Below the pieces are notes generated by a model, which worked only from the letters and a program-made list of their open reading frames with translations, was not told the origin of the DNA and did not search any database. The position numbers and the translations under genes are program-made. Of a stretch of DNA of 41,448 nucleotides, positions 1,388-41,448 are shown in pieces; within the stretch, counting starts at the first letter, position 1; every line of letters begins with the position of its first letter. Source of the stretch: Candidatus Tenebribacter davisii (GTDB lineage: Bacteria > Cloacimonadota > Cloacimonadia > Cloacimonadales > TCS61); NCBI GenBank assembly GCA_030765535.1, contig JAVCCH010000187.1, positions 1 through 41,448 of the forward strand, in the 5' to 3' direction.

Positions 1388-2527
1388 TTAATCTAATCCG
1401 ATACCAGCCAGGGCCTCTGTTGCCATAGTCTTATGCTTCTTAAGAACATGAAGATATTTCATGGTTGATTTTATACTTGTGTGCCCAAGTAACTTGCTTA
1501 CATGATAAATATCCACTCCCTTTAAAAGCAGTAGGCATGCAAAAGTGTGTCTTGCCACATGCCAAGTGATCACTTTTTCAATCCCTGCATTTCTTACCCA
1601 TTGCTTGATCTTTATATTACCTGTTGAATTGGACCCTATCCCTTCAAAGATATGAGAATTACCGTATTTCTTCATCTCAACGACTATTTTAATAGCTTGA
1701 GGTGGAAGTGTGAATTCTACAAACTCTTCAGTCTTACCTTGTTTTATCTTAATTTCATCACCATGGATATCAGAGAACTCTAGATCTTTTAGATCTTCCC
1801 ATCGAAATCCAGATAAACAACCAAATATAAATGCTTTGCATACTACGAATGAATTATTGGGTGGTGGTGTTTTCGCCAGGGACATGAACTCCTCTTCTTC
1901 TAAATACTGCCTATCAGTGATATTGTTCTTAAAAGAGAATTTCCTAGGTATGGGATTTTCGACAATATGATTGTTCTCAACTAAAAAACCCACGAATTCT
2001 TTAAACTTTTGCAAGTAGCTATTTTTTGAGCTATTCAATAAGTCTTGTCTATCTAAGTAGTTCTTAAATTTGAAGCAAAATGGTTTTGTGATATCTTTAA
2101 TCAAGATATTTGGTTTACCCGCATTAAATTTTATGAGATGTGACAATGCATTAGAAAAGTTTTTTTTTGTATTCTTTTTTTTGTATTTAGCGGTATAATA
2201 CTCTTTAAATAAAAACATAAAACTAGCTTCTTGAACGATATTATTTTTGTCGTCCTCATCCATAAAGGTCAAATTTTTTTCAGCCTTAAATTGTCTCTCC
2301 AAGTCATTTAACTTTTTTTTGGCCTGCATGATGATTTTACTATCGTTACTAATAGCTCCAGCAGTACCTTTGATAGTAAGTGATAATGTTCCTCTTCGTC
2401 TATCTAAACCTTTTCGACAAACTTCATAGTTGAGAGAGTATCCGGAAGCAATTTCTCTGAATCTTAGTTTAAAGGTATTTTCGGGTGCATTTTGAGCATG
2501 TATTTTAGCATCGGTTCTCTTATCCAT
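1388..2527 (-). CDS. Tyrosine recombinase / integrase, tRNA-targeting
   Basis: Phage-type integrase of about 379 residues, using the ATG that follows AAGAGGTAATT; an in-frame ATG eight codons further upstream lacks such a site. The N-terminal third is an arm-binding and SAM-like core-binding region. The catalytic domain has SGFRWEDL (Arg near 242), a candidate lysine near 265, HVARHTF (His 323, Arg 326), LGHTS (His 349) and the nucleophile Tyr 358 in MKYLHV. All expected catalytic residues are present. The overall form resembles integrases of Bacteroidota conjugative and mobilisable elements. The gene starts about 170 bases from the tRNA 3' fragment at 2699-2726, the usual position for an integrase next to its own attachment site. 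It is therefore the likely integrase of the element on the left. Confidence 0.93.
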   Translation of the reverse strand: MDKRTDAKIHAQNAPENTFKLRFREIASGYSLNYEVCRKGLDRRRGTLSLTIKGTAGAISNDSKIIMQAKKKLNDLERQFKAEKNLTFMDEDDKNNIVQEASFMFLFKEYYTAKYKKKNTKKNFSNALSHLIKFNAGKPNILIKDITKPFCFKFKNYLDRQDLLNSSKNSYLQKFKEFVGFLVENNHIVENPIPRKFSFKNNITDRQYLEEEEFMSLAKTPPPNNSFVVCKAFIFGCLSGFRWEDLKDLEFSDIHGDEIKIKQGKTEEFVEFTLPPQAIKIVVEMKKYGNSHIFEGIGSNSTGNIKIKQWVRNAGIEKVITWHVARHTFACLLLLKGVDIYHVSKLLGHTSIKSTMKYLHVLKKHKTMATEALAGIGLD

Positions 2528-2698
2528 AATTACCTCTTTTTTAAGATTCAAGTATAAACGTGGCTAAATATGTGGCAAGATTTTTCAAAAATGATTAAAA
2601 AAGAACAAAAAACATAGAGACATTTTATAGGCTTAAATCATTATATTATTATACTTATACATGTCATTACATAAATAACTTGAAAACCTATGATTATT

Positions 2699-6354: not shown

Positions 6355-7320
6355 TTAGCCTACAACACCTGCATTGATAAGGTCATGCATATGCAGCATA
6401 CCGACAGGTTTATTATTCTTATCAACTATCGGCAGCATGGTTATCTTATTGTCTTCCATTAAATTCAAGGCATCAACGGCTAATTCTTCCGGCTGCATAG
6501 ATTTTGGATCTACTATCATAACTTCTGTAACTTTCAGATTCAGATCAGTTAAACCTTTTTCCATCATTCTACGCAGATCACCATCAGTAATTATGCCAAT
6601 AAGTTTACCTTCATCATTTATTACACTGGTACATCCCAAACCTTTAGAGGTCATTTCAATTATCGCTTTATTCATTTTTGCAGAATGGGCAACAATTGGA
6701 TTATCCTTGCCGGAATGCATTAAATCATTAATTTTACAGATCAGTCTTTTGCCAATTGTTCCACCAGGATGGAATTTAGCGAAATCATTTTCATCGAAAT
6801 TCCTTTTTTTAAGCAAAGTAACTGCAATTGCGTCACCCACAGCTAAAGCAACCGTTGTACTGGCAGTTGGGACAAGACCGAATTGTTCATATTCTTTCGG
6901 GACAAAGCAATCAATTGTAATTGATGCATTATTTGCTAATTGAGATTTCAGATTTCCAGTTAAAGCAATAATTGGAATTTTACGGAATTTAATATATGGT
7001 ATTATAGAAGTAAGTTCATTAGTATTTCCGCTATTAGAAACAGCGATAACCACGTCATTATCTTCCAGCATACCAAGATCTCCATGAATCCCTTCTGCAG
7101 CATGCAAAAAAATTGCTGTAGTACCTGTACTCACCAGAGTTGCTGCAATTTTACGTGCAACTATTCCAGTCTTCCCCATTCCGGTAACAACGACTTTTCC
7201 CTTGCAATTGAATAATAGATCTATCGCAGCTTCGATCTTGGAATCAATTCTATCTGCAACTTCGTTTATTGCTTTAGCTTCCAATTTCAGTTCATCTTTA
7301 ATGAATCTGATAATATCCAT
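6355..7320 (-). CDS. kdsD: Arabinose-5-phosphate isomerase
   Basis: Interconverts ribulose 5-phosphate and arabinose 5-phosphate, the first step of Kdo synthesis for LPS. The 321 residues are the usual length. A SIS sugar-isomerase domain runs from about 35 to 180, with TGMGKTG (46-52), SNSGNTNEL (95-103) and the family signature FHPGG (His184). Two CBS domains (about 205-321) follow, with VINDEGKLIGIITDGDLRR near the middle. An AGGAGC ribosome site sits directly before the ATG. It lies downstream of thrS on the same strand, but two palindromes in the gap may separate their expression. With rfaE2 elsewhere in the window it shows that the organism makes Kdo- and heptose-type LPS core. A GutQ paralogue role cannot be excluded. 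Confidence 0.93.
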   Translation of the reverse strand: MDIIRFIKDELKLEAKAINEVADRIDSKIEAAIDLLFNCKGKVVVTGMGKTGIVARKIAATLVSTGTTAIFLHAAEGIHGDLGMLEDNDVVIAVSNSGNTNELTSIIPYIKFRKIPIIALTGNLKSQLANNASITIDCFVPKEYEQFGLVPTASTTVALAVGDAIAVTLLKKRNFDENDFAKFHPGGTIGKRLICKINDLMHSGKDNPIVAHSAKMNKAIIEMTSKGLGCTSVINDEGKLIGIITDGDLRRMMEKGLTDLNLKVTEVMIVDPKSMQPEELAVDALNLMEDNKITMLPIVDKNNKPVGMLHMHDLINAGVVG

Positions 7321-33762: not shown

Positions 33763-33802
33763 AAGAAAGTTAAAGATTTTCGCAATGGTTGCTAGGAAAA
33801 AT

Positions 33803-34657
33803 ATGAATTATAAAAATATATTATTGATCATACTGCTAATGCTCATCACAATTCAACTTACTGCAATAGAGCTTATCTCACTGCAAGGTAATCCAATCCA
33901 GGGCGGAATAGTAATTTGCAGAACTGATGATTCAATTGAAAAAATTTTTCTCGACCATACAGAAATCCCAATTTTTGAGAATAGAGCAATCTTTGGTTTT
34001 GACCGTGATGAGAAACTTAAACATAAAATTACGGTAGTTTTAGAAAACGGTAGTATGTTTACATCTGTTTTCTACATTTCCAAACGCAATTATCAGATCC
34101 AGAGAATTAACGGAATTGAAAAAAAATATATTGAACAACCTCAAGCTTCAGCAACTATTCAAAGAATTACAGTGGAATCTGAAAAGCTTAAAAATAGACG
34201 AAGTAAATTACTCAAAAATAATGATATCTATTTTGATAAATTCTGTCTTCCAATTTCCGGCTGCAGGATATCAGGAGTTTTTGGCAGCCAGAGAATTCTT
34301 AATGGAATTCCAAACAAACCACATAACGGACTTGATATTGCTGCTCCCAAAGGCACTGATATCAAGGCTATGACAACCGGTGTTGTAACACTTACTGGAG
34401 ATTATTTTTATAATGGTAAATTCGTTTTACTCGATCATGGCAGTGGATTAAGCTCTATTTATATACACATGAGTACCGTAAATGTTGAAATGGGAGATTA
34501 TATCCTTGCAGGTGATAAAATTGGAGAGGTTGGTTCTACGGGGCGTTCAACTGGAAATCATCTACATTGGGGTGTTGGCTGGCGATCAAAACGTATTGAT
34601 CCTGAACTATTACTGCAGAATATGGATGAAGTTTTCTTAAAAATACTAAAGAAGTAA
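33803..34657 (+). CDS. M23 (LytM) peptidase domain protein
   Basis: About 284 residues, starting at the ATG after GCTAGGAAAAAT. A signal peptide (about 1-24) precedes an N-terminal beta domain that I do not recognise. The peptidase domain follows CLPISGCRISGVFGSQR. Zinc-site motifs are HNGLDIAAPKGT (HxxxD) and HLHWGVGW (HxH), with IYIHMS between, so it looks catalytically intact. Such proteins cut peptidoglycan cross-links in the periplasm or activate amidases. It precedes the S74 array by 422 bases. Confidence 0.92.
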   Translation: MNYKNILLIILLMLITIQLTAIELISLQGNPIQGGIVICRTDDSIEKIFLDHTEIPIFENRAIFGFDRDEKLKHKITVVLENGSMFTSVFYISKRNYQIQRINGIEKKYIEQPQASATIQRITVESEKLKNRRSKLLKNNDIYFDKFCLPISGCRISGVFGSQRILNGIPNKPHNGLDIAAPKGTDIKAMTTGVVTLTGDYFYNGKFVLLDHGSGLSSIYIHMSTVNVEMGDYILAGDKIGEVGSTGRSTGNHLHWGVGWRSKRIDPELLLQNMDEVFLKILKK

Positions 34658-35079: not shown

Positions 35080-36324
35080 ATGAAAAATCTATTTATCCTA
35101 TTTCTATTAATTACAACATTGTGCCTGTGGGCACAGAATGTACCGCAAATCATTGATTACCAGGGCAGGCTTGCTGATAGTGACGGCAACTACCTTAACG
35201 GTGTATTTACAGTTGATTTTTTGATCTTTCATGTAGAGACTTATGGAACCCCAGTCTGGATTGAAACACAGGATGTTACCACAGACAATGGTATCTTTCA
35301 TGTATTGCTTGGTTCTGTGACTACATTACCAAGTGATCTTTTTGATAATAATGAATGCTGGTTAGAATTAGCTGTAAGTGAAGAGACACTTTCACCGAGA
35401 ACAATTATAGCAAGCGTTCCCTATTCCATTAAAGCTGAAAGTGCATATACAGTTGAAGCACCTCTCAATATTAGTGGAAATGCTGATTCTCCAAATAGCG
35501 TTATTACTGGTACAAACACCGGTACAGGTTATGGTGTCTATGGTAAAAATGACGACAGTGGAAATTATGGTTACCTGGGAGGTACATACTACGGTGTTTA
35601 TGGACATAGTTATACAAATCATCCTGGTGTTTACGGTTATAATACATACCTTTCCGGTTGTGGTGTTATTGGGTTTAGTACTGGTGATATGAGCTATGGT
35701 GGTAATTTTGAAGGGGGTTCTATTGGTGTTTTTGGTATGGTAATTCCAGGTGGAAGCGGTTCCTATTATGGAATATATGGAAACGTTTACGGTGGTACAG
35801 GCACGAATTATGCAGTTTATGGTTACACTGGGGGTAGTAATAGTACTAACTATGCTGGGTATTTTGTTGGTAATTTAGCTTATACTGGAACAATTAGCAA
35901 TCCTTCCGATGAACGTTTTAAAGAAAATGTACAGCCATTCGGGAATGCTCTATCTAAAATCAAGCTTATGAATGTGCATACGTATAACTACATACAAATG
36001 GCAGAAGAAAAACAGTTTGTACTACCAGAAGGTAAACAGATCGGGCTGATAGCCCAAGAACTGGAAGAGGTCATTCCTGAACTGGTAACTGAAAATGTTC
36101 ATGCTTATGATAAGAATAAAGGCATCGAAGGTGCAGAAAGAGATGTGGAAGAAATTGAATATAAAGGAATAAATTATATTGGTCTTATTCCGGTTCTCAT
36201 CGAAGCTATCAAAGAACTACAAACTCTGAATGAAGAACAGCAAAGACAAAACGAAGAACAGCAACAACAGTTAAGAGAACAACAAAGTCAGATCGATGAA
36301 CTTCTAAGAACTGCCGGGAATTAA
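35080..36324 (+). CDS. Secreted S74 endosialidase-chaperone protein, array copy 1
   Basis: A 414-residue exported protein. The signal peptide ends near LWAQN (20). The N-terminal domain (21-125, IDYQGRLADSDGNYLNGVFT to RTIIASVPYSIKAE) is shared by all five array members and occurs in many FCB-group surface proteins. Residues 130-265 are GVYG-type repeats (YGVYGKNDDSGNYGY) expected to fold as a trimeric beta-solenoid. SDERFK (276-281) starts the S74 domain, with the Ser276-Lys281 dyad intact and EKQFVLPEGKQIGLIAQELE following. A Gln-rich coiled coil ends the protein. S74 domains trimerise and then cut themselves off. Ribosome site AAAAGGAGTTATT. The function is probably surface binding or adhesion. 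Confidence 0.85.
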   Translation: MKNLFILFLLITTLCLWAQNVPQIIDYQGRLADSDGNYLNGVFTVDFLIFHVETYGTPVWIETQDVTTDNGIFHVLLGSVTTLPSDLFDNNECWLELAVSEETLSPRTIIASVPYSIKAESAYTVEAPLNISGNADSPNSVITGTNTGTGYGVYGKNDDSGNYGYLGGTYYGVYGHSYTNHPGVYGYNTYLSGCGVIGFSTGDMSYGGNFEGGSIGVFGMVIPGGSGSYYGIYGNVYGGTGTNYAVYGYTGGSNSTNYAGYFVGNLAYTGTISNPSDERFKENVQPFGNALSKIKLMNVHTYNYIQMAEEKQFVLPEGKQIGLIAQELEEVIPELVTENVHAYDKNKGIEGAERDVEEIEYKGINYIGLIPVLIEAIKELQTLNEEQQRQNEEQQQQLREQQSQIDELLRTAGN

Positions 36325-36359
36325 AGATAGATTCAAAATAAATGTTAAAAGGAGTTATT

Positions 36360-37802
36360 ATGAAAAATCTATTTATCCTATTTCTATTAATTACAACATT
36401 GTGCCTGTGGGCACAGAATGTACCGCAGACAATAGACTACCAGGGCAGACTTGCTGATAGTGACGGCAACTACCTGAACAGTGTAATCACAGTTGATTTT
36501 TTAATTTTTAGTGTAGAAACAGGTGGAACTTTACTTTGGAATGAAACACAGGATGTTTCATGTGCCAATGGCATCTTTCATGTTCAACTCGGTTCGGTAG
36601 CTGCATTCCCCAGTACCCTCTTTGATGGTTCAGACCGCTGGCTGGAACTGGAAGTGGGAGGAGAAACACTTTCACCTAGAACAATTGTAGCAAGCGTTCC
36701 TTATGCCATTAAAGCAGAAACTGCCTATAATGTGGAAGTACCCCTAAACCTTAGTGGAAATGTTTCTGACCCCAATAGTGTTATTACTGGCGAAAATACG
36801 GGTACAGGCTATGGTGTTTTGGGTATACATAATGAAAGCAGTAATATTGGTTATTTAGGAAATTCAGTAAGTGGTGTTTACGGTTATTGTATTGAGCCTA
36901 CTACAAAAGGCGTTTATGGTCTGCACTCCAATGGAAATTATGGTTACCTTGGTTCATCCGATTATGGTGTTTATGGACATAATTATTCAAGTTCTGGTGC
37001 CGGTGTTTACGGTTATAATACATCAGTTAACGGATATGGTGTTTATGGTAATAGTACTGGTAAATATGGTGGTTACTTTAATGCAAGTTATAATAGCAGC
37101 CTAACACACGTAATTCATGCTGAGTACACAGGTACAGGCAATATGCATGCTACAGGGGTTTATGTGATATGCAAACCGACAGATTGGTATGGATATGGCG
37201 GACAATTCGAGGGTGGCCGGATTGGGATTATAGGTAGAGTATCACCAATAGGGAATGAACACTATTGGGGAGTGTATGGAGTTGCTAATGGTGGATCAGG
37301 TATAAATTATGCAGTTTATGGCTATTCATATGATGGTGGTACAACCTATGCAGGGTATTTCAATGGTAATGTTCATGTTACTGGAACATTCACCAATCCT
37401 TCCGATGAACGTTTCAAAGAAAATGTGCAACCATTCAAAAATGCTCTTTCTAAAATTAAATTAATGGATGTGCATACTTTTAATTTTATCCAAATGGCAG
37501 AAGAAAAGCAATTAGTACTTCCGGAAGGGAAGCAGATCGGTCTGATAGCACAGGAGCTGGAAGAAATTCTTCCTGAGCTAGTTGTGGATAATGTTCATGC
37601 TTATGATAAAAGTGAAGGTATCGAAGGAGCAGAAAGCGATATAGAAAGAATAGAGTATAAAGGAATAAATTATATTGGTCTTATTCCGGTTCTTATCGAA
37701 GCTATTAAAGAACTACAAATGCAAAACGAAGAACATCAGCAGAAGTTACAAGCTCAACAAAAACAGATCGATGAACTTCTAAGAGCTGACAGGAAAAAAT
37801 AA
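36360..37802 (+). CDS. Secreted S74 endosialidase-chaperone protein, array copy 2
   Basis: A 480-residue paralogue of copy 1, from the ATG after AAAAGGAGTTATT; six in-frame codons upstream are not used. The leader and signal peptide region is identical to copy 1 over 83 bases. The N-domain differs more (VETGGTLLWNETQDVSCANG). The GVYG repeat region is longer and closely matches copy 3 (GVLGIHNESSNIGYLGNSV). The S74 dyad is Ser348-Lys353 (SDERFK), intact. The coiled-coil end EEHQQKLQAQQKQIDELL matches the orphan tail found after copy 4. A hairpin leader to copy 3 follows. Confidence 0.86.
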   Translation: MKNLFILFLLITTLCLWAQNVPQTIDYQGRLADSDGNYLNSVITVDFLIFSVETGGTLLWNETQDVSCANGIFHVQLGSVAAFPSTLFDGSDRWLELEVGGETLSPRTIVASVPYAIKAETAYNVEVPLNLSGNVSDPNSVITGENTGTGYGVLGIHNESSNIGYLGNSVSGVYGYCIEPTTKGVYGLHSNGNYGYLGSSDYGVYGHNYSSSGAGVYGYNTSVNGYGVYGNSTGKYGGYFNASYNSSLTHVIHAEYTGTGNMHATGVYVICKPTDWYGYGGQFEGGRIGIIGRVSPIGNEHYWGVYGVANGGSGINYAVYGYSYDGGTTYAGYFNGNVHVTGTFTNPSDERFKENVQPFKNALSKIKLMDVHTFNFIQMAEEKQLVLPEGKQIGLIAQELEEILPELVVDNVHAYDKSEGIEGAESDIERIEYKGINYIGLIPVLIEAIKELQMQNEEHQQKLQAQQKQIDELLRADRKK

Positions 37803-37808
37803 TGTAGG

Positions 37809-37827
37809 GATAGCTCAGAGAGCTGTC
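37809..37827 (+). repeat. Leader hairpin before array copy 3
   Basis: GATAGCTC-AGA-GAGCTGTC is an eight-base stem including one G-T pair. It is followed by CGAATAAATTATAAAAAAGG and the ATG. The same leader, broken by an insertion, precedes copy 5. The 7374-7390 palindrome shares its core. Confidence 0.6.
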
Positions 37828-37854: not shown

Positions 37855-39312
37855 ATGAAAAATCTATTTATTCTATTTCTATTAATTACCTCATTGTGCC
37901 TCTGGGCACAGAATGTACCGCAAACAATAGACTACCAGGGCAGACTTGCCGATAGTGATGGCAATTATCTTACTGGTGTTTATTCAGTTGAATTCGATCT
38001 GTTTAATTTGGAAACCGGTGGCAGCGAATTATGGATCGAGAATCAGGATGTAAATGTTGCTAATGGTATTTTTCACGTTCTCTTGGGTTCGGTAAATCCA
38101 TTTCCTGCAGGTCTTTTTGATAACTCTGTTCTCTGGTTGGAATTTCACGTAGGAGCAGAAATTCTATTGCCACGAACCAGAATCGCCAGTGTTCCTTATT
38201 CCATCAAAGCAGAAACAGCCTATACGGTAGAAGCACCTCTCAACCTTACTGGAAATGTTGCTTCACCAAATAGTGTTATTACAGGTGAAAATACCGGTAC
38301 AGGTTACGGTGTTTTGGGAATACATAGCAACAGTAATAACATTGGTTACTTAGGAAATTCAGTCAGTGGTGTTTATGGTTATTGTATTGAAACTACCACA
38401 AAAGGCGTTTATGGTTTACACTCCAGTGGAAATTATGGTTATATAGGTTCATCCGATTATGGTGTATATGGGCAGAATTATGTAAGTGCTGGTTCTGGTA
38501 TTTACGGTTATAATACTGCACTTAATGGATATGGCGTTTACGGTAATAGTACAGGTTATTATGGTGGGTACTTTACTTCAAATTATAATAATAGTCTTAC
38601 CCATGTAGTACACGCTGAATTCACAGGTACAAGTACTAATGCCATTGCTGTTTATGGTAAAAGCATACCTGAAGATTATCAAGGTTATGGTGGATGGTTT
38701 GAAGGCGGTTTTAGAGGTGTTATTGGCATAGTATACCCAACAGGTAGTAACACTTATACTGGAGTGTATGGTTTAGCTAGTGGTGGTTCAGGTACAAATC
38801 GTGGAGTCTATGGTTATGCCTCAGGCACAGGAACTAACTATGCTGGGTATTTCAATGGTAATTTAGCTTATACCGGAACACTCAGCAATCCTTCTGATGA
38901 ACGTTTTAATGAAAATGTACAGCCATTTAAAAATGCTCTTTCTAAAATAAATTTAATGAATGTGCACACCTTTAATTTCAAACAAATGTCAGAAGAAAAA
39001 CAATTAGGACTTCCAGAAGGTGAACAGATAGGTCTTATCGCCCAGGAATTAGAAAAAATACTTCCTGAACTGGTATCAGATAATGTTCATACTTATGACA
39101 AAAATGAAAGCACCGAAGGAGCAGAAAGGGATATGGAAAGAATTGAATATAAAGGAATAAATTATATTGGTCTTATTCCAGTTTTAATAGAAGCTATGAA
39201 AGAACAGCAAGAACAGATAGAAACACAACAACAGCAGATTGAAGCACAGCAAAGGCAAAACGAAGAACAACAAAGACAGATATATGAACTTCTAAGAGCT
39301 GCCGGGAATTAA
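37855..39312 (+). CDS. Secreted S74 endosialidase-chaperone protein, array copy 3, dyad lysine lost
   Basis: A 485-residue paralogue with the same layout: signal peptide, common N-domain (VPQTIDYQGRLADSDGNYLT), GVYG repeats (130-340), S74 domain and a long Gln-rich coiled coil (EQQEQIETQQQQIEAQQRQN). The S74 start reads SDERFN, so the lysine of the Ser-Lys dyad (position 352) is asparagine through one base change at 38910 (AAA to AAT). In the phage endosialidase chaperone this lysine is needed for self-cleavage. The protein may therefore keep its chaperone domain. The rest of the domain is preserved (KQLGLPEGEQIGLIAQELEK). Confidence 0.86.
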   Translation: MKNLFILFLLITSLCLWAQNVPQTIDYQGRLADSDGNYLTGVYSVEFDLFNLETGGSELWIENQDVNVANGIFHVLLGSVNPFPAGLFDNSVLWLEFHVGAEILLPRTRIASVPYSIKAETAYTVEAPLNLTGNVASPNSVITGENTGTGYGVLGIHSNSNNIGYLGNSVSGVYGYCIETTTKGVYGLHSSGNYGYIGSSDYGVYGQNYVSAGSGIYGYNTALNGYGVYGNSTGYYGGYFTSNYNNSLTHVVHAEFTGTSTNAIAVYGKSIPEDYQGYGGWFEGGFRGVIGIVYPTGSNTYTGVYGLASGGSGTNRGVYGYASGTGTNYAGYFNGNLAYTGTLSNPSDERFNENVQPFKNALSKINLMNVHTFNFKQMSEEKQLGLPEGEQIGLIAQELEKILPELVSDNVHTYDKNESTEGAERDMERIEYKGINYIGLIPVLIEAMKEQQEQIETQQQQIEAQQRQNEEQQRQIYELLRAAGN

Positions 39313-39347: not shown

Positions 39348-41078
39348 ATGAATAAATTATTTATCACTATTTTACTTTTCACCTCAATGTGCCTGTGGGC
39401 ACAGAATGTACCGCAGACAATTGACTATCAGGGCAGATTGGCTGATAGTGAAGGCAACTACCTTAACGGTGTAGCCACTATTGATTTTCTCATCTTTCAT
39501 GTAGAGACTTATGGAACCCCAGTCTGGATTGAAACACAGGATGTTACTGCAGACAATGGTGTCTTTCATGTATTACTTGGTTCTGTGACTACACTACCAA
39601 GTGATCTTTTTGATAATAATGAATGCTGGTTAGAATTAGTTGTAAATGGAGAAACACTAGCTCCCAGAACTGCTATTGCCAGCGTCCCTTTTGCTATTAA
39701 AGCCGAAACTGCCTACACACTAGAGAACATGGGTTCCGGTTCAGGTTTGGATGCTGACCTATTAGACGGACAGGATTCCAGTGAGTTTATGCCTGCAAAT
39801 GCTGATAACTGGGTGAATACAACCGGTGATACAATGACGGGCAATCTTGTTGTAAATGCAGATTTCCAGGCTACAGGTGTAACCAGTGACAGCGGTGGAG
39901 ACGCAGGAACAAATGGGCAGGTACTCTCAAGTACAGGTACAGGTACTAATTGGATAGACACAGCTGCATCTGGTGATATAACAGAAGTGACAGCTGGTAC
40001 TGGGCTAACTGGTGGTGGAACTGCCGGCGCTGTAACCTTGAATGCAGATCTTGCCGGGAGTGGTGCAGCAACTACTCTCTCACGCAGTGATCATAACCAC
40101 GATGTGAGTTATGTTAACGAGGGGCAAGAAAGCAGCGTTACATCGAGCATGATAACTGATGGTGAAATATCTGTATCCGATTTACAGGATGGTGCAAGCT
40201 TAACAGAGATACTGGACGATGATGGAACAGGTTCTGGTTTGGATGCTGACCTATTAGACGGTCAGGATTCCAGTGAGTTTATGCCTGCCTCTACTACCTG
40301 GGGTGATATAACAGCAGTGACAGCCGGAACTGGTTTAACTGGTGGTGGAACTTCCGGTGATGTTACCTTGAATGCAAACCTTTCTGGGAATGGTGCAGCA
40401 ACTACTATCTCCCGCAGTGATCATAACCATGACAGCTCGTACGCGCCCATCAGTCATGCCCACAGTGGCAGCGACATCACGAGTGGTACCATCGGGAATG
40501 GCTTCTTCAGCGCGTATAGCGACCTGGGCACAGAAGGACGCTTGGACAATAATGCCACGACTGACCTGCTCACCCGTACCCAGTCCGATGGTAGATATCT
40601 ACAGGGGATTTCGACAGCCACCACGAGCGGGCTCAATGGGGGAGGGACATCTGGCACTTTGACCCTCAGCGTCGATCCAACTGATTTCAATGCGGTGCCC
40701 ATCAACTCGGGGACGGGAAGCCAGATTAACCTTTCCGAAACGCCGCAGACACTTCGGCAAGCTTCCATCAACGTGCCGGTCGCCGGGAGAGTGGTCGTGA
40801 TGGCAAATCTCGACGTTGCGAAGCACACCACGGCATCCGCATACGCCGGCTTCTGGCTCAGCACCTCTGCGACGTCCACGTCCGGGCAATCACCCACGTC
40901 TGTCGGCTGGGGGACGAGTAACACATACGCTGTCGAGTACAGTAATGTCGCGCTATCCACCGTGTATTCGGTTTCTGCAGGAACGACGACCGTGTACCTT
41001 CGTGGAACGATGACCGCCGCCGGACAGAGTTTCTACGCGCTTCGAGGCAACATCACGTTGCTGTTCGTGCCCAACTAA
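39348..41078 (+). CDS. Chimeric surface protein, array copy 4, with tail-fibre repeats and a GC-rich tip
   Basis: A 576-residue protein. Residues 1-125 are the array signal peptide and N-domain, nearly identical to copy 1 over one stretch. The GVYG repeats and S74 domain are absent. Instead there are tail-fibre-like modules: GSGLDADLLDGQDSSEFMPA twice, and GTGLTGGGT...SRSDHNHD twice. A C-terminal domain of about 140 residues follows (from about 440, VPINSGTGSQINLSETPQTL, ending ALRGNITLLFVPN), beta-rich, like a trimeric C1q- or tail-fibre-tip sandwich. DNA from about 40437 is much richer in GC than its surroundings. Likely a cassette from another organism or phage, joined in frame at the SRSDHNHD repeat. 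Ribosome site AAAAAGGAGGTCGT. Confidence 0.85.
   Translation: MNKLFITILLFTSMCLWAQNVPQTIDYQGRLADSEGNYLNGVATIDFLIFHVETYGTPVWIETQDVTADNGVFHVLLGSVTTLPSDLFDNNECWLELVVNGETLAPRTAIASVPFAIKAETAYTLENMGSGSGLDADLLDGQDSSEFMPANADNWVNTTGDTMTGNLVVNADFQATGVTSDSGGDAGTNGQVLSSTGTGTNWIDTAASGDITEVTAGTGLTGGGTAGAVTLNADLAGSGAATTLSRSDHNHDVSYVNEGQESSVTSSMITDGEISVSDLQDGASLTEILDDDGTGSGLDADLLDGQDSSEFMPASTTWGDITAVTAGTGLTGGGTSGDVTLNANLSGNGAATTISRSDHNHDSSYAPISHAHSGSDITSGTIGNGFFSAYSDLGTEGRLDNNATTDLLTRTQSDGRYLQGISTATTSGLNGGGTSGTLTLSVDPTDFNAVPINSGTGSQINLSETPQTLRQASINVPVAGRVVVMANLDVAKHTTASAYAGFWLSTSATSTSGQSPTSVGWGTSNTYAVEYSNVALSTVYSVSAGTTTVYLRGTMTAAGQSFYALRGNITLLFVPN
39741..39796 (+). repeat. Tail-fibre module repeat A, first copy
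   Basis: Encodes SGLDADLLDGQDSSEFMPA. The second copy at 40233-40288 differs at two of 56 bases. Confidence 0.9.
39972..40099 (+). repeat. Tail-fibre module repeat B, first copy
   Basis: Encodes GDITEVTAGTGLTGGGT through to SRSDHNH. A second, more diverged copy of the same length lies at 40302-40429, and the GC-rich segment begins right after it. Confidence 0.88.
40233..40288 (+). repeat. Tail-fibre module repeat A, second copy
   Basis: Pairs with 39741-39796. Such near-identical in-gene repeats can recombine and change the length of the stalk. Confidence 0.9.
40302..40429 (+). repeat. Tail-fibre module repeat B, second copy
   Basis: Pairs with 39972-40099. Its end, encoding SRSDHNHDSSYAP, is where base composition changes, so it probably served as the crossover site. 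Confidence 0.85.
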
Positions 41079-41146
41079 CGGTCCGCCTGTTCCTGCAACT
41101 GCAGGAAAGGGCGAGAAAGTCCCCCTACGTTAAAACTACGGTGGAC
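40437..41146 (+). other. GC-rich segment, probable foreign cassette
   Basis: Two 60-base lines that I counted inside it have about 52% and 60% G+C; a line of array copy 3 has about 37%. The segment covers the 3' part of copy 4 and about 70 bases past its stop, including the hairpin TTCCTGCA-AC-TGCAGGAA (41090-41107) that may be the donor gene's terminator. It ends where S74-type coiled-coil sequence resumes. Confidence 0.75.
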
Positions 41147-41149
41147 AAG

Positions 41150-41209
41150 GAGAAATTACAAGCTCAACAAAGGCAGATAGATGAACTTCTGGGATCAATA
41201 GAAAAATAA
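41150..41209 (+). pseudogene. Orphan 3' end of a displaced S74 gene
   Basis: The frame EKLQAQQRQIDELLGSIEK then stop matches the coiled-coil end of copy 2 (QKLQAQQKQIDELL). It has no start and is not in frame with the chimeric gene upstream. It is best read as the tail left when the GC-rich cassette replaced the rest of a former S74 copy. Confidence 0.8.
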
Positions 41210-41226
41210 TAATGTAAGGATAGCTC

Positions 41227-41294
41227 CTGCCTGCCAAGCCGAAGTTGTACGCTCGTTCTACGTAGTAGTGTTACTACGAAGGGTGAAAAAGTTG
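41227..41294. mobile_element. 68-base insertion in the leader hairpin of copy 5
   Basis: The leader reads GGATAGCTC, then about 68 foreign bases, then GAACTGTCCGAATAATTATA, whereas before copy 3 the two parts form one hairpin. The insert holds its own perfect stem, CGTAGTA-GTGT-TACTACG (41261-41278). It looks like a tiny palindromic repeat element. No transposase or clear target duplication is visible. Confidence 0.5.
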
Positions 41295-41329
41295 GAACTG
41301 TCCGAATAATTATAAAAAAAGGAGGAATT

Positions 41330-41448
41330 ATGTTGAGTTTCACGAAATCCCGACTTTCGGGGAAAAACTTATTTATTACTATTTTACTTTTTATCTCATT
41401 GTGTCTCTGGGCACAGAATGTACCGCAAACCATCGACTACCAAGGCAG
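41330..41448 (+). CDS. Array copy 5, start of a further secreted paralogue (3' end beyond window)
   Basis: Only 39 codons are seen: MLSFTKSRLSG, then KNLFITILLFISLCLWAQN and VPQTIDYQG, the array signal peptide and start of the N-domain. Compared with its siblings, 30 bases (41333-41362, ten codons) are inserted in frame straight after the ATG, lengthening the basic n-region of the signal peptide. Ribosome site AAAGGAGGAATT. Whether it has an S74 or a tail-fibre type C-terminus is not visible. Confidence 0.8.
   Translation, partial: MLSFTKSRLSGKNLFITILLFISLCLWAQNVPQTIDYQG

Follow-up and report, generated by a model that had tools for sequence, protein, structure and literature searches.

A mosaic gene with a GC-rich end in a tandem array of putative MAT-like fibre genes of Candidatus Tenebribacter davisii

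The 41,448-nucleotide window analyzed here is a complete contig (G000:C28) of the 3.0 Mb genome of Candidatus Tenebribacter davisii, a draft in 218 contigs, whose close relatives are Candidatus Cloacimonadota MAGs, including Ca. Tenebribacter burtonii. The right end of the window carries a tandem gene array on the plus strand. The array starts 3′ of bat-type genes and an M23 peptidase gene (33785–34657; Pfam PF01551), which marks its left boundary, and this order of bat genes, M23 peptidase, and array is kept in five sister genomes (G001, G004, G005, G006, and G007). Copies 1 (35080–36324), 2 (36342–37802, with a likelier start at 36360), and 3 (37855–39312) each consist of an N-domain, GVYG repeats, and an S74 domain (Pfam Peptidase_S74, matches of 8e-14 to 4e-16). 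They are followed by copy 4 (39348–41078), a mosaic gene of 576 residues, and by the start of copy 5 (41330–41448), which encodes a signal peptide and the motif NVPQTIDYQG. The array in the window is incomplete because the contig stops 119 bp inside copy 5. Copies 1 and 2 contain the S74 motif as SDERFK, and the lysine of SDxxxK is likewise kept in every sister S74 end checked; copy 3 has an asparagine at this position and may lack self-cleavage, because SDERFN replaces the SDxxxK motif. A tyrosine integrase gene (1388–2551, minus strand), with Phage_integrase and SAM-like domains, lies close to the left edge of the window, 33 kb from the array. Neither an invertase nor a reverse transcriptase next to repeats, as in a shufflon or DGR, was found among the window proteins scanned, and the array runs past the contig. 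No Rfam families were found within the array.

Copy 4 is a single open frame with a signal peptide and anchor N-domain (39348–39728, aa 1–127) that are 85, 75, and 69% identical in DNA to those of copies 1, 2, and 3, respectively, as expected from an initial annotation of this DNA, which held that the gene retains the leader and N-domain of the array. In the stalk (aa 128–363), the DLLDG and GDIT..GGG..SRSDHNHD modules occur twice in succession, with DNA identities of 97% and 87% between the repeated parts. Specifically, unit 1 (39735–40103) comprises GSGSGLDADLLDG, a linker, and the GDIT..GGG..SRSDHNHD module, with the first SRSDHNHD at 40080–40103. A second linker (40104–40229), of resident GC3 (0.36), leads to unit 2 (40230–40433), which ends in the second SRSDHNHD (40410–40433) and, as judged by homology to the G004 array locus L038 and by the GC3 change point, is the last resident-like coding DNA. 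The stalk matches phage tail PHROGs, in line with the tail-fibre modules originally described for copy 4. Viral contigs contain at least 200 stretches with stalk-related modules, and one viral protein bears the same DLLDG and HNHSASNITSGT modules as copy 4. S74 was sought in copy 4 without a Pfam match of any kind, as opposed to the clear matches in copies 1–3, and an S74 stub lies outside the gene; the reported absence of the S74 domain is thus upheld.

The composition of copy 4 changes abruptly along its length. GC3 is 0.32–0.36 through residue 363 and 0.685 (~0.69) beyond. The best change point by maximum likelihood falls after codon 361 of 576, where GC3 jumps from 0.32 to 0.69 with a log-likelihood ratio (LLR) of 37.2, a value reached in none of 1000 shuffles (maximum 13.2). 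Copies 1–3 have no such break (LLR 3.9–5.0), and the highest GC3 over any 213-codon stretch in the 18 window genes examined is 0.413, versus 0.685 in the copy 4 tip. The mosaic that the initial annotation had described is therefore real, and its break is sharp and located at the second SRSDHNHD module, with the end of which the change point coincides; its position is residue 361–363 and not 440. The stalk has an overall GC of 0.43–0.49, yet its GC3 stays resident, so the higher overall GC is an amino-acid effect rather than foreign DNA, and only about aa 364–576 look foreign. Copy 4 is a fusion, whose GC-rich foreign part of ~645 bp (40434–41078) extends from the second SRSDHNHD to the stop codon, and the frame is open across the junction.

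The left edge of this segment is also seen by comparison with a sister genome. Stalk unit 2 is 77% identical in DNA to positions 6750–6954 of L038, in the second array gene of G004, through the SRSDHNHD codons. Beyond them, copy 4 and this YadA-tipped G004 copy share no alignable DNA, and both part at the same base. The first and second stalk modules of copy 4 likewise diverge here, at the end of SRSDHNHD. Because the G004 copy and the two modules of copy 4 part there, the SRSDHNHD module is a boundary with at least three continuations. GC3 also rises in the last 40–67 codons of array genes ending in Lcl_C (L040:3311–4861 and L042:6401–7780).

The GC-rich segment is subdivided into an adaptor and a terminal domain. 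The adaptor (40434–40667, aa ~363–440, GC3 0.66) contains HAHSGSDITSGT..SAYSDL..LLTR and GLNGGGTSGTLTL fibre modules and shares 44% identity with a module in G005 whose composition is native. The terminal domain (40668–41075, aa 441–576, GC3 0.70) is an orphan by sequence. A comparison of residues 440–576 with proteins, the check proposed alongside the initial annotation, returned no sequence relative of aa 441–576: none was found in 125 Cloacimonadota genomes, in phage and plasmid records (tblastn), or among PDB sequences, Pfam, PHROGs, and NCBIfam. Tip peptide patterns were likewise found neither in viral contigs, scanned twice, nor in GTDB contigs, pattern scans being sensitive to close relatives only. 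A weak match to Roseobacter phage SIO1 gp6 is confined to the stalk.

Two single-sequence AlphaFold2 models of the tip are all-β and of low confidence (mean pLDDT 54 and 66). Foldseek retrieves mostly TNF/C1q-like folds, and the Bdellovibrio MAT tip Bd2734 (PDB 8okw) and the BC2L-C lectin appear in the lists of both models. Phage proteins reach 2.6e-5, and no PDB match lies under an E-value of 0.001. Because the PDB E-values miss this threshold and the top matches of the second model are to SEC14L4, we regard the fold as a lead and not a result. Within these bounds, the terminal domain of copy 4 is probably a TNF/C1q-like β tip, which is predicted to sit at the fibre end and to bind a ligand on a surface, a glycan being compatible with the fold. 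A binding function is suggested by fold and family.

Downstream of copy 4, a genus-type inter-gene spacer (41082–41149) forms hairpins (fold z −2.9) and ends in a ribosome-binding site, AAGGAG. Positions 41082–41158 are 88% identical to L039:5657–5733 in G005, a spacer located 3′ of an S74 array gene. This refutes the possibility that the ~70 bp between stop codon and stub, with a GC of 0.56, belong to the GC-rich import. The 22-base core of the spacer occurs once in the window genome, and the idea of a high-copy mobile repeat there was therefore rejected; sister species have the element as well. A related hairpin-rich spacer motif is scattered in the genus (41082–41149; L039:5657–5733), with up to nine copies in G007. 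The spacer leads into a stub (41148–41209) that is the 3′ end of an S74 array gene and encodes EKLQAQQRQIDELLGSIEK followed by a stop; positions 41148–41226 are 83% identical to 37738–37816, the 3′ end of copy 2 and its spacer. The stub is followed by an array spacer (41210–41329), 94% identical over 50 bp to the spacer preceding an array gene in L051. No plus-strand open reading frame of 60 or more residues exists between the copy 4 stop and copy 5. S74 coiled-coil DNA thus lies past the stop codon, as the initial annotation had claimed. Its displacement from copy 4, the other half of that claim, is not established: since the spacer before the stub ends in a ribosome-binding site, the stub may be the rest of the next array gene, and the sister genomes compared yielded no S74 gene assignable to exactly this array position.

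In the five sister genomes, genes at the same locus carry different C-terminal ends. G001 has three S74 ends; G004 has S74 and then the YadA-like end of the second array gene of L038, which is YadA-head-like (PF18792, at its cut-off). G005 has S74 and Lcl_C, with one Lcl_C and three S74 ends on a second contig; G006 has an unclassified end and then S74; and G007 has Lcl_C. In a tree of N-domains, copy 4 groups with copy 1, which ends in S74, and with G006 copy 1, which has a non-S74 end (support 90/82). The Lcl_C copy of G005 falls among the G005 S74 copies (support 100/99). The latter are 89–92% identical in DNA to the Lcl_C copy over the first 377 bases, with no aligned homology past them. 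These comparisons show tip diversity and anchor–tip decoupling at this locus, the sequences of anchors and ends having separate histories. The exchange of tips on a common anchor is well supported, because near-identical anchors bear different ends and the homology between copy 4 and the YadA copy of G004 stops at one and the same base in both. The proposal that the locus exchanges binding ends holds up in this comparison, in which gene order is the same, C-termini differ, and a single clade of N-domains includes copies with different ends.

Three further features were observed in these genomes. A second leftover 3′ end is present at L038:7739–7950 in G004, where a second YDWAAGSLWEDD terminus with its stop, and then the last codons of an Lcl_C gene, come after the YadA-like end. 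In array copy 1 of Ca. Tenebribacter burtonii (L041:6462–8276, minus strand), the C-terminal end matches no Pfam family and represents a further uncharacterised tip. A gene for a Big_9/cadherin-like protein (L039:5733–7448) with a Por_Secre_tail/FlgD-type C-terminal sorting domain lies next after the array in sisters. Contig C63 of the window genome starts inside such a gene and was rejected as the missing right flank, because this family has 131 matches in the genome.

The position of the S74 stub can be read in two ways. The reading that we slightly favour, rating it a little above even, is that an S74 gene once followed copy 4 and survives only as the stub: a deletion joined the leader of that gene, ending in AAGGAGAA, to its own coiled-coil end via AGAA microhomology, copy 4 already having its GC-rich end. 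A complete genus-type spacer precedes the stub, with a ribosome-binding site where the next gene should begin. The same element in G005 ends in GGAGAAAATATG, a ribosome-binding site plus start, directly before the next ATG, and related spacers also lead into an ATG in contig C160 of G005 and in G007. In the window, GGAGAA instead passes straight into the S74 coil, the junction lying within an AGAA common to leader and coil, and a normal array spacer and copy 5 follow the stub. Because of this leader and AGAA junction, a deletion explains the stub at least as well as a true C-terminal replacement, which we consider possible at somewhat lower probability. A fragment with tip, stop, and spacer would then have recombined at the stalk repeat on its left and at S74 coil microhomology on its right. 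Replacement predicts an S74-type stub directly downstream of copy 4, as observed, and has a parallel with another tip and another stub in G004. There, the YadA-like end is followed by TACAATGTTCGTGCAGTTCGGGCTTTTTAA, which corresponds to the end of an Lcl_C gene (YNVRAVRAF) and the downstream spacer of the Lcl_C gene; no leader intervenes, so this comparable stub looks more like replacement and speaks against deletion. The single genomic occurrence of the 22-base core, in an element shared with sister species, further allows that the spacer arrived with a donor fragment. However, replacement requires that the GC-rich tip and a genus-type spacer were already linked in the donor, and nothing links the stub to copy 4 over a lost neighbor.

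Two other accounts concern the locus as a whole. That the GC-rich piece stems from another organism and was joined via the conserved stalk repeat during assembly is very unlikely, even though the genome is a draft, the contig ends inside a repeat array, and the GC3 break is exact. The genus-type spacer, the S74 stub, and copy 5 all lie on the right of the segment, so a chimera needs two false joins ~650 bp apart; in addition, the frame is open through the junction, and an independent fusion at the same module exists in a sister genome. Phage fibres typically have such stalk modules and S74 domains, which, together with the phage-type integrase gene, could mean that the segment belongs to a prophage or a phage tail-fibre locus and not to an adhesin array of the bacterium. 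We hold this to be extremely improbable because a signal peptide and an N-domain are present in all copies, the neighbors are housekeeping, bat, and M23 genes in an order kept in sisters, and virion genes were not identified near the array.

We consider it likely, from comparison of the sequences, that the locus comprises tandem genes for secreted, MAT-like trimeric fibres whose tips are diversified by recombination in stalk modules. The products, with their signal peptide and fibre modules, would be trimeric and surface-exposed. Each gene would comprise a conserved surface-proximal N-domain, phage-fibre-type stalk modules, and an exchangeable C-terminal end: an S74 auto-processing chaperone, Lcl_C, a YadA-head-like end, or, in copy 4, a TNF/C1q-like tip. 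The recombination behind the exchange would take place in or next to repeated stalk modules, a type of module found in array genes and phage tail fibres alike. Such recombination through stalk modules, in line with the initially proposed capture of a foreign tip through a conserved stalk repeat, is a well-supported inference. Genome, viral, phage, plasmid, and protein-family searches yielded no donor for the GC-rich end. The S74 stub would record a later or concurrent rearrangement, either a deletion affecting the next S74 gene or a replacement, whose far edge it would mark. More tentatively, the array may be a dedicated tip-switching locus, in which stalk modules act as standing recombination sites that take up foreign tips time and again from phages or other bacteria, with stubs of the earlier ends left behind; this stronger claim seems to us rather speculative. 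If true, the binding repertoire of the cell would turn over faster than the species. The anchor, junction module, foreign end, and leftover stubs are all readable in sequence, which makes the diversification of bacterial surface-binding fibres testable and links chromosomal adhesins to phage fibre modules.

The array has features in common with several known systems. Copies 1–3 contain the endosialidase chaperone S74 domain (PF13884), which copy 4 lacks and which in copy 3 has SDxxxN for SDxxxK. As in the exchange of tips between S74 phage tail fibres, the genes combine the same stalk modules and S74 chaperone ends in a modular mosaic build; unlike phage fibre genes, they are chromosomal, secreted, and tandem, with a non-phage N-domain. 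CDI/Rhs polymorphic toxins have a conserved N-terminal part, a C-terminus that varies after a conserved motif, and leftover C-terminal pieces downstream, and an orphan end can be fused by deletion (PMC3150448). The array resembles them in its conserved N-terminal part, its variable end past a conserved motif, and its downstream leftovers, but its product would be a fibre and not an effector. Copy 4 has no Pfam toxin domain, no immunity gene was seen, and the stubs cannot be a reservoir because they span only about 10–20 codons.

The closest resemblance may be to the mosaic adhesive trimer (MAT) proteins of Bdellovibrio bacteriovorus, in which a signal peptide is followed by a conserved domain of ~130 residues and a long fibre that ends in S74 with SDxxxK or in an adhesive fold, including a TNF-like one; tip swapping in these fibres has been proposed as a hypothesis (PMC10769870). 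The NCBIfam model Bdello_MAT_N matches all 10 N-domains tested (best 2.3e-15), with copies 3 and 4 under the curated cut-off (36–46 versus 60 bits), and the array is thus best called MAT-like rather than a certified MAT member. Array genes resemble them in a signal peptide followed by a putative MAT-type N-domain, a predicted fibre, and S74 or adhesive-type ends; the MAT-type ends encountered are the SDERFK S74 of copies 1–2, Lcl_C and YadA-like ends in sisters, and the low-confidence TNF-like model of copy 4. In contrast to MAT, the genes here are in tandem at one locus, their N-domain is distant, and no report of predation was found for the phylum. Exchange is visible across sister genomes, with leftover 3′ stubs, and, unlike the hypothesis for the predator, it concerns a fixed locus in a non-model phylum that can be compared species by species. 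The array of this little-known sediment bacterium is much like the mosaic fibres with which the predator Bdellovibrio binds its prey.
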